Source: Entophlyctis helioformis (lineage: Eukaryota > Chytridiomycota > Chytridiomycetes > Chytridiales > Chytriomycetaceae). From it: a stretch of 49,374 bases of DNA. Position numbers and translations under genes: made by a program. The stretch covers positions 1 to 49,374 of the forward strand of contig JAHLKH010000192.1 of NCBI GenBank assembly GCA_025526915.1. Direction: 5' to 3'. Positions 43,711 through 49,374 of the stretch are shown here, one piece after another. The notes below the pieces were generated by a model, which was not told where the DNA came from, made no database searches, and saw only the letters and a list, made by a program, of their open reading frames with translations. How positions within the stretch are numbered: position 1 is the first letter of the stretch; each line of letters starts with the position of its first letter.

Positions 43711-44995
43711 TTAATCCATGCCAAACCAGGCTGCCCACGACGAGTGCAGCCGCCAGCTGCCAGAGAAAAAGTGCTTCACGCAGGCCTCTGGGTCCGTCTC
43801 TGGCCGTGATCCCTGTGGCAGCAGAGTGCACGCCATTCAAGCCATTCAAGCCATTCAAGCCATTCAAGCCATTCACGCGTCAGTCCACACATGCAGCACG
43901 CCGCGGGATCTGCAGCCGGCACAGGTCGCTTACCATGTGGTGCATGCCGGGCGAAAAGGCCGTGATGGGCAGCACGGCCACGTCGCCAAACAGCACCGAG
44001 TGCTCCAGCTTGCGCAGCGACCGGCGCGGCACATTCTGCAGATGCAGCTCGGCAAGGATGCCGTCGGTCCAGGGGCCCGGCCCCGTCGTCTCGAGCACGT
44101 CGATGCCGCTCTTGTCCTTGCCGTTCCTGTCCCTGGCGCGCGTCTGCTCGTCCTTGAGCTGCTCGGCGGCCATGGCCTGCTGCGTGATGGCCAGCGACAG
44201 GCCGACGGCGCGCCGCACGGCAGGGTGGTCGGGCGCCGACGCCATGGTCCACTGGCACAGCTGCAGCGAGCGCGTAAAGTACTTTTTCCAGCCGCGCTGG
44301 AAGACGTCGGCCTCGACGCCGACAATGAAGCGGGCGGCGCGTGCCTGGCTGCGGGGCAGCCACTGGCCGACGGGCTTGAGCGGCGAGGTGTCGAGGTCGC
44401 TGTAGATGCCGCCAAACGTCAGCAGCAGCAGGTAGCGGGCGAGGTCTGCGCGCAGCACGTTCTTGGGCAGGCTGCGGTACAGGTCGACGATCGCCGGGTG
44501 GTATTTGCGCACAAAATCGTCGAGATCGGCGTCGGTCCACAGGAGGTGCGTGTGGCTCGGATGCATGCTGATGAACGCCCGCACCTTGTCGAGGTGCTCG
44601 TTGGGCACCGTGGCCGACTTCCACTGCTGGTGGATGAGCGGCGGGATGTGCGGCAGGCGGCCCGCCGTTGCTGTGGCCGTTGCGTTGGCCGGCGTCGTTG
44701 CGTTGGCCGCAGCATCCCGCAGGAACGCTCCGACAGCGGCCTCGGCTGTTGCAAGAACGCCGCCGGAGGCGCCAGCGCTTTGTTTGAGTGCGTCGAGAAC
44801 GCTCACGTCGCCCGAGTACGGCTGCACGTGCAGCGCCTGCTCCAGCTCCAGGTGGTAGCGCTCGTCGATGTTGTCCACGTCCACCTGCACGGCCAGGATG
44901 GGGCTCGACGGCAGCACGGCCATGACAATGCTCGTCACCACCAGCGCGAGGATGCCCAGCGCCGCGACCACAACAAACCGACTGGTGCCCTTCAT
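43711..44995 (-). CDS. GT32-family glycosyltransferase, Och1-like alpha-mannosyltransferase
   Basis: Golgi type II membrane enzyme of the Och1/Hoc1/Sur1 superfamily, transferring mannose from GDP-mannose. Model: complement(join(43711..43797,43934..44995)), 382 residues. Start MKGTSRFV, a signal anchor (VVVAALGILALVVTSIVMAVL, residues 8-28), a variable stem, then IPPLIHQQWK, LWTDADLDDFV, the catalytic DxD in TFGGIYSDLDTSPL, and a second exon giving the family's terminal KHFFSGSW motif and ending WFGMD. The small last exon was found by requiring that motif and a phase-0 join. Its intron holds a CCATTCAAG tandem array (about 43838-43876). Upstream 44996-45288 contains only presumed promoter. Confidence 0.9.
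43838..43876 (+). repeat. CCATTCAAG tandem array in the GT32 intron
   Basis: About four to five copies of a nine-base unit, inside the 136-base intron. Confidence 0.85.
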
Positions 44996-45288
44996 TTTGC
45001 GATTGTTTCGCAAGTTTGAGTTGCGCCCCCCGTGTGCTCTCCACCGGCTTGTGGCAGCGTTGAACACCAAGCACCACACACGGCGATCTTTATGAGGGGT
45101 GGGCAATAGGGCGAGGGAATGCCGGCAGTTGCCGGCAAAATGCCCGACATCCAAACAATTACCAAGAATCATTGAATTAAATTGGACCCAAGAGGCGTCG
45201 AATGTAAGGCAAGCATAACACACGATTGAAGGTTCGAGTCAGCAACGAGCATGCGACGACAGGCGGGCGAGGCACATCCACATGCATG

Positions 45289-45341
45289 AGGGTCTTACCT
45301 TCGTAAAGTGACCCTATTGGTCGATCGGGAGGTGCCCCGAT
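45289..45341 (-). ncRNA. Candidate Fanzor guide (omega) RNA: two hairpins after the stop codon
   Basis: The base after the Fanzor stop begins a perfect six-base stem (45324-45329 with 45336-45341, ATCGGG/CCCGAT, six-base loop). Eight bases on is a second hairpin, 45289-45315: outer stem AGGGTC/GACCCT, inner stem TTAC/GTAA with a CTTC loop and a three-base bulge. In studied Fanzor and TnpB loci the guide RNA scaffold overlaps or follows the 3' end of the nuclease gene. The structure and position are seen; the RNA itself is inference. The guide part would lie towards 45200-45288. Confidence 0.4.
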
Positions 45342-48300
45342 TCATATTGTGCTGGAAGTCACAGCACGTGGAGTTGCATGTGCCTTGCTGGCTCGTGACC
45401 CGCGGACAGACCGTGTCCGTGGTGGAGGCGGCAGGACGATGGGCGGATCGGGTGGTCTTGGAGGCCGCTGGTTGACAGGCAGCTCAGGTACTGGAAGCTG
45501 CTGGACGACAGGCTGGCTGGCCTTTGTGTGCGTCAAGTAGAGCGGCCGCTCTCCATCGAGCAAATGCCCCAGTGCGACCATTCCGATGTTGGTGGCTCCA
45601 AGCACGTCTCGGTGGTAGACGGCCTTGCATGCTGTGCACTCGTAGCGTCGCAGGTTGGTGCGGTTCTTGTCTGGGATGCGCTGCTTGCACTGCGGGCACA
45701 TCTGGCTGGTCAGGTTCTCGTTGCAGCGGTAGATCTGTGTGTGTGTGTGTGTGGCATGATCGTGTGGTCAGTTGGTGCACAGATGGATGGATGGATGGAC
45801 AGTGTGGCATCAGACGCACATAGGCATATCCAGACGACCGCAGATGCCTGATGAGAAACTTCTCAAACACTGCATGCCGGCCACCCTCGCCAGTAAAGTC
45901 GATGCCCAATGCCCAGACAACTGGGATGTTGTCCTCTGCCGGCTTTGTTTGGTCGAAGGGCAGGCCTTGAGACGCAGGAGATGCGCGCTTGCCAGTGGTC
46001 GATCCTGCCAGCTTCATGATGCCCTCAAGAGCATGTCCGCGAAAAGACATGCTGTTGCTGCGCATGGAAAAACGCTCGGCCTTGACCTTCTGTGGAATGC
46101 CATGCCATGGCACTCAATGCAATCAGCAGGCGATCAAGCAGCATGGCGATCATGTCAATGGGCATCCAGAAGCAGAGAAAACATACCTTTGCATTCAGGA
46201 ATGTCGAGCAGTACGCCAAGCAGCGAAGATCCCAAAAGGCTCTCTCGCCAGGCTTGACGTTGGATCGGCATGCTTTGCCATCTTGAAGGCAATCGCCTCA
46301 TGGATGTCGGCTGCCTTGGCATATCGATTGTTGAACCTGGCACAAGAGACAGGCGCTGTGAGTTGATCTACCCAAGAGTGCACAGAGTCATTGCATACAT
46401 ACCATCGCAGAAGTTCGCGCTCAGCTTGAAATAAGCCAGAGGAGAGCACATAGTTGGACTCGTGCGTGTATGTGCCGGTATTGACGTTGACCAGCATGCT
46501 GGACGCGCCAAACAGGTACCGCTGGCCCCAGTCTAGACTGACAACGCGAACAGTCTGGTAGCCCTTGTCGGCGAGCAGCTTGTTGGCATCAGCAACATCA
46601 GGTAGTCGCTGGGATGCATTGAAGTTGCGCTTGGCCTGTCATGCCATGGCATGAGTGAGGGATGTGCAATGCATGTGCACCAATGCGCGAGGTTGCATGC
46701 AAGTGGCTTACAGGATTGGGTGCTTTTGGCTTGGCAGCTGTGGATGGCATGTCAGTTGGTGTGGACAGCAAGTACGCGTCTGGATTGGCACAGCAACTCA
46801 CATTCGCTGTTGAGGTAATCAGGCACACAATCAGCCTCATTGGCAAGACTGGGAAGCTCGCATGAAGACGCCGTGTCGGGACCTGCGAAGCAAGGCGGCG
46901 GTTAGAATTGATGTGTGCACCAAAGCATCCAAGCACGGCACATACTGCAAGGCGACTCTGGACGGTCTGTGCGATAATCGCGAACCAACTGGCCGACGCT
47001 GTATCCGTTCGAGATGACACTACTCATCCGTGTCCGTTTGGTTGGTCTCGCTGGGGGTAGAGCATCAACCGCAGCCTGGATGAAGTCCTTGCGCTCCTTG
47101 CCACGCAGACGCTGCTTCTTGGCCTCTTGCGTCGCCTTGGCTCTAGCCGCTTTCTTGGCCTTGGTGTTGGCTGCGTCCATTTCCGCTTCGGCTTCTGCCG
47201 GCGTTTGATACCGGCCTTTCTTGGGGCGGAGGCCGGGAAGCAGGACGTCCATGACGCAATTCTCGCGACTCGAGCTGAATGCCTTCTTGATCTCGCTGTC
47301 GGTTGACTTGAGTGTCAACTTTTTCGAGCCAGGCTCTTTGAGAAAGGTGGATTGTTAGTATCAAATCATAAAAAGATGGCACAAACAGGCAGTGCAACTT
47401 ACTGATCGCAGCAAGTAGCTCCTTTCGCAGTGCTTGCAAAGCAGGATCCTGCCCCTTGCTGTCGCGCTCCTTCTTTGTCCCCATCACAGACCAAAAGAGT
47501 GTCCTCTCTGTGATGAGAACGAAAGGGTCGCAGCTTGCCGGCTGCGGGCAAAGCTTGATGCTCTGTCTCCCAGCGAGATTGCGCAGCGCATGGAACTTGC
47601 CGGGATGCGACAGCGACTCACTGAGCACAATCGCAGCGAGCTCGTCTAGCTCTGGAGGTAGCACGACAACGGCCTTGCCCTCTGTGGCTGAGGAAGAGCT
47701 GGATGCTGCGGCCTTCTTGCTGCGTGGCTTCTTTGGTGCGTCCTTGCCCTCCGTGGCTGGCGATGGGCTCGGCGCCGCGCTCTCGGTGGTGGCAGCCTTC
47801 CCGACACATGGCTTCTTGGCATCCTTGGCAGCGGCGGCCTTAGCAACGCGTGGCTTCTTGGCGGCTTTGGCAGCAGCACCGTTGGCAGCCGTGGCGTCCT
47901 TGGCAGTGGTGTCCTTGCCGACGCGTACCTTCTTGGCTACGCCGCCCTTGTCGGTGATTGAAGTGCTGGACGCGGTCCGCTTGTGGGTTGGCACGGCGTC
48001 CTTGCCGACGCGTACCTTCTTGGCTACGCCGCCCTTGTCGGTGATTGAAGTGCTGGACGCGGTCCGCTTGTGGGTTGGCACGGCGTCCTCAGTGGCAGCC
48101 TTCCCAACGCGTGGCTTCTTGGTGGCTATGGCAGCAGCAAGCCTGGCGTCCCTGGTGGCTTTGGCAGCTGCATCCCTGACGGCTTTGGCAGCTGCACGCT
48201 CGGCGTCCCTTGGCAGCTTTGGCAGCTGCGCGCTTGGCGTCCCTGACGGCTTTGGCAGCTGCGCGCTTGGCGTCCCTGGCGGCGTTGGCAGCTACACGCT

Positions 48301-49374
48301 TGGGATCCTTGGCGTCTGCGGCGTCCTTGGCAGCTTTGGCAGCAGCGCGCTTGGCGGCGTTGGCAGCAGCACGCTTGGCGGTCTCAGCGTCCCTGGCTTT
48401 CTTGATCAGGTACGTAGTCCACGCCGTCGCTTGCTTGGGAGTTGAACCGCGCACAAGCTTGAGGCACGCTGCAAACACCAGGTCGGACTGGCTTCCAATG
48501 TAGTGCTGCGCCAGCATGGCACACACACTCTTGGCGAGGTTGCTGAAGATATCATTCGCAGCTTCCGCGCAGAGGCTGCCGTCAAGCCTGTCTGGTAGAG
48601 CCGGCTCCTGCGCGACGGCTGGCGGCATTTTGGGCTGTGGTATGCCTTTCTTGATCGCATTGGCGTGCACCATGCCTCGCGTCCATGACCGGTGCATCAT
48701 CAGCTGCATGGCCGTGACGAGCCACGCGTTGATCGTGCTCATATTGAGACCCGGCTGGGCCATCTGCTTGCCACTGAAAATGTACGACAGGTGGCGCAGC
48801 ATACAGGCCATGGACGTCTCGCCGCCAGAAGCGCTGCTGATGATCTCCGTGAGCAGTTGGTTCGCTGTTGGCACCGCCGGTGCTGCTCCTGGCTGCTCAG
48901 ACTCGTCGGCGTCCTCGGCGTCCTCAGACTCGTCGGCGTCCTCGATGTCCTCAATGTCCTCATACTCGTCGGCGTCCTCGCTGTCCTTTGACTTCTTGAC
49001 CCTCTCGTGCAGACATATCTCGAGTCTCGTGCCCGTGGCGAGTGGCACCGGATCGCCAAAGCGAGGATCGCTGCTCTCTGGGTTGTACAAACTTGAGCCA
49101 TACATGATCCGCGCATCGATGCCCTTTCTGAGCGTAAATCGGCCGGACAGGAAATCCTCCCTTGACACGCCGCCGGGGCGGTTGGTGCGTCTGAGTTGCT
49201 GGGATCGTCGAGGGCTCTGATATCATCGTTGCTCAAGAAGCAGAACCCGGTCTGCTTTTCTTGGAACCACTGGTAAACGTGGTATTTTGGCGGGAGGGGC
49301 GCGTCTTGAACGATCTCGAGGAGCTCTTCAAGGACGGCACCAATGACGATAAGGCCGGCCTGCCGAGTACCGAC
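45342..49374 (-). CDS. Fanzor: eukaryotic TnpB-like RNA-guided nuclease, 5' end beyond the window
   Basis: Exons 45342-45734, 45820-46089, 46187-46336, 46403-46635, 46712-46737, 46802-46882, 46946-47335, 47403->49374. RuvC-I VVSLDWGQRYLFGASS carries the first catalytic Asp; WALGIDFTGEGG is the RuvC-II region; NENLTSQMCPQC supplies the Glu in the alternative place described for Fanzors; the zinc ribbon CPQC...CTAC ends in YHRDVLGATNIG with the third Asp. Upstream lie a basic helix-rich region, a Lys/Ala-rich histone-H1-like stretch with KKPRVGKAA repeats (likely nuclear targeting), an acidic EDIEDIEDADESE tract and an unassigned N-terminal domain. One C is missing near 46279 (GATCCAACG); frames also shift near 48208 and 49175. 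Intron 7 has TACTAAC. Confidence 0.87.
47911..48084 (-). repeat. Perfect 87-base tandem duplication inside the Fanzor gene
   Basis: Two identical 87-base units (47911-47997 and 47998-48084) encode 29 residues twice, containing PTHKRTASSTSITDKGG and KKVRVGK. Perfect identity indicates a recent duplication. It keeps the reading frame and adds one more basic, nuclear-signal-like cluster. Confidence 0.92.

Follow-up and report, generated by a model that had tools for sequence, protein, structure and literature searches.

Contig C192 of the Entophlyctis helioformis assembly (29.6 Mb) is 49,374 bases long and is here called the window; one of its ends is a damaged copy, cut by the contig end, of a large, repeated Fanzor transposon family that occupies more than 100 places in the genome. 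Fanzors are RNA-guided nucleases of eukaryotes, related to CRISPR enzymes. The window covers nearly the whole Fanzor gene and, of a transposon of roughly 10 kb, the final 4.3 kb, and the family is likely to comprise a Fanzor1-type nuclease with an N-terminal domain of its own, an XPG-like partner gene and a 3' guide-RNA scaffold. The Fanzor-carrying type of element is known; the N-terminal domain is new, and a nuclease partner is probable. With more than 100 copies, close ones included, defined ends, a selected added domain and a probable second nuclease, all in a small fungal genome, the family allows a test, inside a native host, of what Fanzors do for transposon maintenance.

The gene lies on the minus strand of the window in eight visible exons (Table 1), separated by seven GT-AG introns of about 60–100 bases. 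A first-pass annotation of this DNA had joined eight exons by phase, and these exons and introns stand, but the phases fail at three frame breaks (near 49.18, 48.21 and 46.26 kb), where a single probable missing base had been supposed. Relatives are open at these places, and mutation and assembly error appear indistinguishable from the assembly. A probable exon 1 (54 residues) would lie outside the window and was read in relatives from frame and GT-AG signals only. Exon 2 is open at the contig end, whereas exons 3–9 are complete. Exon 2 encodes the N-terminal domain, which contains an acidic tract, then a Lys/Ala linker and a pre-RuvC (REC-like) segment. About 957 of about 1,270 residues precede RuvC-I (a sum that uses the exon lengths of relatives and 58 residues for exon 1, which in relatives reads 54), in agreement with the earlier statement that more than half of the protein does.

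The RuvC-I motif, relocated Glu and CPQC/CTAC zinc ribbon named by that annotation were all read, and the ribbon matches PF07282 at 45585–45749 (43.1 bits; cut-off, 26.3). The codons of the RuvC-I Asp, the relocated Glu and the RuvC-III Asp (in HRDVLGATNIG) start at 46533, 45719 and 45608, so that the description of the core as catalytically complete holds for the three residues (D, E, D) but not for the frame with its three breaks, nor for RuvC-I, which reads DWG and not DPG. The relocated Glu (Ealt), six residues ahead of the zinc finger in NENLTSQMC, occurs in 17/17 copies with exon 9. The core follows the published Fanzor1 motif D-X(125,275)-[TS][TS]-XX-[C4]-X(5,50)-RD (PMC3627910), with 191 residues from D to TS and 5 from the last Cys to RD, counted with exon 7 borrowed from a relative. 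Amongst 14 copies read, the WED motif was TDG in nine and SNG in five, including the window.

Genome-wide, the zinc ribbon was matched at a minimum of 150 places (150 of 205 candidates scored), the RuvC-I exon likewise at least 150 times (150 of 206 candidates scored) and a 260-residue stretch of the N-terminal domain 228 times (147 of 270 candidates scored). Within the window subfamily, the nine full-length N-terminal rows are 97–100% alike. The left flanks of the copies on C98 and C182 (copies are named here by contig) are the same host sequence on two contigs, which are probably allelic or duplicated; since contigs can be allelic, copy number is not locus number and the counts are inflated.

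Like the Fanzor1 proteins SpuFz1, GtFz1 and PpFz1, the Entophlyctis nuclease has a RuvC D-E-D with the Glu just ahead of a C4 zinc ribbon, in part of the copies (9/14 read) a TDG in the WED-like region, and a 3' non-coding end adjoining the host flank (PMC10432273, PMC11423790). It differs in its length (about 1,270 residues compared to 600–700 for the majority of Fz1; PMC11423790), in its third catalytic residue (Asp, where GtFz1 has Asn), in DWG for DPG and in an N-terminal domain without relatives. A profile match to the Guillardia theta Fanzor1, itself not significant (E 0.65), lines up first the TDG, then RuvC-I and then the zinc ribbon. Several results count against the reading as a Fanzor1-type nuclease: DWG replaces DPG in 15/15 copies with exon 6, the window subfamily has SNG instead of TDG (5/14 copies), and the core profile found nothing significant in the PDB (E 0.32 and above). 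The Fanzor fingerprint has been given as DPG plus Ealt, with Fanzors having DPG ‘near exclusively’, though a separate Ealt clade in which a hydrophobic residue replaces the Pro has also been described (Yoon et al., PMC10711439). The Entophlyctis family shares the RuvC-I pattern of that clade but has the Fanzor1 TDG in 9/14 copies, and its combination of DWG and Ealt puts to the test the idea that nearly all Fanzors carry DPG. Because of the DWG, we call the nuclease a divergent Fanzor1-type protein, with a predicted length of about 1,270 residues, rather than a strict Fanzor1 member. Amongst 5.8 billion proteins, the core had eight homologues, all eight from Entophlyctis helioformis, in a search that needs shared 5-residue words and that distant relatives can escape; in viral contigs 91 stretches fitted the core pattern and none was confirmed as a relative. 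No publication naming both Fanzor and Entophlyctis was found in a mostly non-subscription literature.

Element ends and the 3' non-coding stretch

The element carries two genes in one direction, the XPG-like gene first and the Fanzor second, and a full-length copy (C98) measures 9,948 bases. Within the window subfamily, all nine copies compared stop at CCCACCCCTC and are followed by unrelated DNA. Full-length copies start GAG..GGTAATTG, with C333 deviating there, and the 5' end of relatives, GAGGGGGGGGTAATTG, pairs with the 3' end at 13 of 16 positions when aligned by eye, forming imperfect terminal inverted repeats. Target duplications of 9 bp flank C121 (9/9, AGATCCCAT) and C144 (9/9, AGCAATGAA; judged by eye), whereas C15 retains 7/9 and C98 has none. 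In mucoromycete fungi, transposase-less MuDr-type Fanzor1 elements with 9-bp duplications have been described (Bao and Jurka 2013, PMC3627910). The Entophlyctis family has in common with these the 9-bp duplications, the terminal inverted repeats and the lack of a detected transposase; it differs in its size (about 9.9 kb), in its second, probable XPG gene and in that no similarity to known MuDr ends has been shown. A further point against the family as drawn here is that the MULE transposase PF10551 had no match in the genome, with three control genomes positive. A constant 3' region with a variable or truncated 5' part is shared with MCi-2 (eleven loci) and with CRe-1/2/3 (about 150 loci for CRe-1; PMC3627910). 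In that paper, MCi-2 is without terminal inverted repeats and the CRe elements are Helitron2. A Helitron was considered for Entophlyctis and rejected: RepHel PF14214 found no match in the genome, weak evidence as no control genome matched either, and the terminal inverted repeats and target duplications speak against it.

Between the stop codon and the element terminus lies a nearly invariant non-coding stretch, present in 20/20 loci compared that extend beyond the zinc-ribbon exon and, genome-wide, matched in 40/40 of the candidates scored (40 of 211). The best reading of this stretch of roughly 200 nt, held a little less firmly than that of the family as a whole, is a guide-RNA scaffold, since Fanzor guide RNAs sit at this place and include the terminal inverted repeat and duplicated bases (PMC10711439). 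It would be longer than published Fanzor1 omegaRNAs (75–150 nt). Three drawn helices show compensatory changes at two pairs in three cells, and in the third helix 88% of cells are paired. At one place a hairpin recurs in 12 variants that differ in length and sequence, some of which fold better than shuffles and others not. Rfam held no match to the stretch. Statistical support for a structure is weak: the covariation score of the three helices was reached by 28/500 shuffles, RNAalifold found both sides changing in 1/37 predicted pairs, and the window stretch has a z of -1.50, with 15/200 shuffles folding equally well. Near invariance at an element end and weak covariation would also suit a subterminal or transposase-binding end needed only for movement, with no guide RNA; its location where Fanzor omegaRNAs are found and the hairpin recurring at one place, though some variants fold like shuffles, make this alternative rather unlikely, if the least unlikely of those considered. 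As a guide-RNA scaffold, the stretch would let transcription running through the 3' end of the element pick up adjoining host sequence as the guide. The Fanzor may then cut empty or just-vacated sites, and such cutting would favour retention or copying of the element.

The window copy has its three frame breaks, C82, C333 and C98 are broken elsewhere, and C82, C3 and C177 are 5'-truncated, as would be expected if the copies were dead relics with a Fanzor no longer working. Against this stand the 97–100% likeness of the nine N-terminal rows of the window subfamily, the long open frames in several copies and the ratios of nonsynonymous to synonymous change (dN/dS) in three N-terminal blocks: amongst 26 overlapping comparisons, 24 gave measurable values and 23 of these lay between 0 and 0.47 (the highest was 0.69, for C50–C139 over 40 codons; two near-identical pairs had no synonymous change). 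The N-terminal domain is mostly under purifying selection, and decay of the whole family is unlikely. Between four subfamilies (C333, C49, C50 and C139) the share of synonymous differences drops towards the 3' end, from 0.36–0.80 in the XPG-like and N-terminal blocks to 0.09–0.49 in exons 6–8 and 0.08–0.19 in exon 9. This gradient looks as though the 3' end had been homogenised across subfamilies; together with the constant 3' ends and the 5' truncations, it suggests copying or gene conversion starting from the 3' end.

The upstream XPG-like gene

An upstream gene was seen in the relatives C98, C333, C49, C50, C139 and others (L048, L049, L050–L061); it is absent from the window because the contig ends. 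Of 142 upstream-gene places entered, 82 are followed by the N-terminal domain at a distance of less than 6 kb. Its protein starts with MG[IV].G in 4/9 copies as read and carries, in pieces joined by eye, the motifs HVD, HVDG, EADVCIA, NDSDLV and NDY or close variants in this order; the deposited models P0001–P0003 give the same protein. In an alignment of nine copies, D61, D111, D249 and D307 are invariant and E[AS]D[VC]CIA occurs in all eight that cover the segment; we take these acidic residues to be counterparts of the FEN1 catalytic residues. PF12813 (XPG_I_2) was the sole family matched by more than one member (3/9, best E 0.0017), and hhalign to a PF12813 protein of the host aligned EADVCIAR..NDSDLV (E 0.022, probability 2.1%). 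From these motifs the gene probably encodes an XPG/Asteroid-type nuclease, with which it shares HVD, HVDG, E[AS]D..IA, [ND]xxDL and D[YFC] in order; unlike the PF12813 domain, however, none of its nine members exceeds the curated cut-off, and its homologues were found only in this species (three amongst 5.8 billion proteins, 3/3 Entophlyctis helioformis, the best 7,996 word-sharing candidates being scored). The assignment is weakened by four further results: hhalign gave no match between human FEN1 and the protein, a PDB search with its profile brought up no XPG chain (a COMM domain protein appeared at E 0.11), a PF12813 scan of the genome gave three matches, all outside element copies, and an AlphaFold prediction from three sequences was unusable (mean confidence, pLDDT, 38.9).

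Academ elements are XPG-carrying transposons; in the small part of the literature covered, no co-mention of Fanzor with XPG or FEN1 was found. A host PF12813 gene, presumably Asteroid-like, lies at C38:89474–90367, about 6 kb past the zinc ribbon of one copy (L063).

The two genes may form a two-nuclease system, in which an XPG-type structure-specific nuclease works with the RNA-guided Fanzor and the N-terminal domain docks the partner or is itself the transposase. Empty-site cutting, break-end processing and copying from the 3' end would then be a single coupled reaction, which would account for the 3'-ward drop in synonymous differences as well as for constant 3' ends and 5' truncations. This extension is doubtful, more so than decay of the family.

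The N-terminal half of the nuclease

The N-terminal half was compared with the Fanzor core in position and in frame. For 93 of 126 N-terminal places, a RuvC-I exon follows downstream on the same strand 1.1–2.5 kb away (median, 1,664 bases), and at no place (0/126) is such an exon arranged otherwise within 3.5 kb; the remaining 33 are unlinked, some of them at contig ends or more than 3.5 kb apart. Conversely, the domain lies upstream of 93 of 150 RuvC-I exons. These counts used 126 places taken from part of the 228 matches, with extra pieces of one copy omitted, 150 RuvC-I rows and 142 of 150 upstream-gene rows. The recurrence of the same N-terminal part and core across the genome indicates that the arrangement is more than chance. 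A single uninterrupted frame holds both the end of the domain and the pre-RuvC motif LCPQPA in 14 of the 20 copies that were read, amongst them the most divergent ones, C139 (518 codons) and C50 (616 codons). Read by eye, the deposited models run from exon 3 into exon 8 (P0004) and join exons 8 and 9 (P0006) and exons 2 and 3 (P0008), with the same junctions as here. The two parts could instead be separate, adjacent genes within the element and give only the appearance of a fusion, and it is true that six of the 20 copies do not have both motifs in one frame and that the eight deposited models seen are all partial (P0005 keeps an intron), none bridging the domain to the core; the open frame in the other copies and the exon 2–3 splice of P0008 nevertheless make this very improbable. 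We therefore take the N-terminal half and the core as one gene and a real fusion, as read from the frames, and the earlier description, a Fanzor whose N-terminal half is unusually long, is borne out.

The probable exon 1 and the beginning of exon 2 supply about 420 residues ahead of the linker, of which the 260-residue domain is 36–66% identical to the window in ten copies. No homologue of the N-terminal part was found amongst 5.8 billion proteins, shared 5-residue words again being required, and of 46 stretches in viral contigs that fitted its pattern none was confirmed as a relative. Its profile found nothing meaningful in the PDB (the match to Mediator subunit 18, E 0.08, takes in the acidic tract), its Pfam matches are weak and differ between copies, and AlphaFold gave the domain alone a pLDDT of 43.3. 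The domain appears, from these searches, to be new, lineage-specific and found only in Entophlyctis helioformis. PpFz1, too, is a Fanzor1 that carries an extra domain restricted to its lineage, the FRI insertion that binds cyclophilin, but this is about 100 residues inside RuvC, whereas in Entophlyctis about 420 residues and a linker precede the REC/WED-like region (PMC11423790). The N-terminal domain may be a protein- or DNA-docking module for the machinery of the element itself; its tether would be a flexible linker for which neither length nor sequence matters much.

The Lys/Ala stretch measures 242 residues in C173, 253 in C15, 79 in C49, 82 in C50 and 5 in C139, where it is in effect absent, and in C50 it is not basic (Lys+Arg 8, Asp+Glu 14 and Ala 19 of 82). 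It is a low-complexity linker that lengthens and shortens, not a histone module, and the length of the acidic tract, a D/E-A repeat, varies between relatives. The first-pass annotation had likened the stretch to linker histone H1, pointed out a strongly acidic tract and suggested that the fusion, if real, could target chromatin or recruit partners. Although the linker of the close relative C173 is rich in Lys+Arg (62) and Ala (83 of 242 residues), a linker-histone-like chromatin-targeting module is hardly credible given the five residues of C139, the non-basic tract of C50 and a Pfam scan of two window pieces in which no linker histone family reached E ≤ 1. With a variable linker, no H1 match and a variable acidic repeat, chromatin targeting rests on nothing testable in these data, and neither tract is retained here as a functional module.

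Window features and flanking DNA

Table 1. Positions of the element's parts in the window, numbered on the forward strand.
Feature	Positions	Strand	Remarks
3' terminus and imperfect terminal inverted repeat	45094..45111	-	CCCTATTGCCCACCCCTC read on minus strand
3' tail in part of the family	45094..45141	-	remaining subfamilies stop earlier, at TCGGGCC
Conserved 3' non-coding stretch, candidate omegaRNA scaffold	45136..45345	-	putative guide is host flank below 45094
Exon 9	45342..45734	-	relocated Glu, CPQC/CTAC zinc ribbon, RuvC-III Asp; stop 45342–45344
Exon 8	45820..46089	-	junction 7–8 also in P0004, junction 8–9 in P0006
Exon 7	46187..46336	-	contains frame break near 46.26 kb
Exon 6	46403..46635	-	RuvC-I, catalytic Asp in SLDWGQRY
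Exon 5	46712..46737	-	
Exon 4	46802..46882	-	
Exon 3	46946..47335	-	WED-like region; SNG instead of Fanzor1 TDG
Exon 2	47403..49374	-	5' part cut at contig end; breaks near 49.18 and 48.21 kb
Lys/Ala-rich low-complexity linker	47671..48400	-	approximate limits
Conserved N-terminal domain, 260 aa	48395..49174	-	without known relatives
Acidic D/E-A repeat tract within N-terminal domain	48896..48994	-	

Two types of 3' terminus divide the family, L002, L003, L007, L050 and L052 on one side and the rest on the other: an end at TCGGGCC, or a tail of ~48 bases that ends at or near CACCCCTC. No clear insertion preference for gene starts or orientation was seen in 16 flanks judged from open frames. 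The right flanks of C121, C144, C15, C98 and C333 all start with AG, and those of the 5'-truncated copies do not. Near the 5' end of C98 (L048) and C333 (L049), a Ser-rich frame of about 170–190 codons with a basic stretch lies on the opposite strand and is possibly a third gene of the element. Beside the element in the window, a host gene occupies 43880–45019 on the minus strand, with its ATG 98 bases past the 3' end of the element; judged by eye, its product is presumably glycosyltransferase-like.

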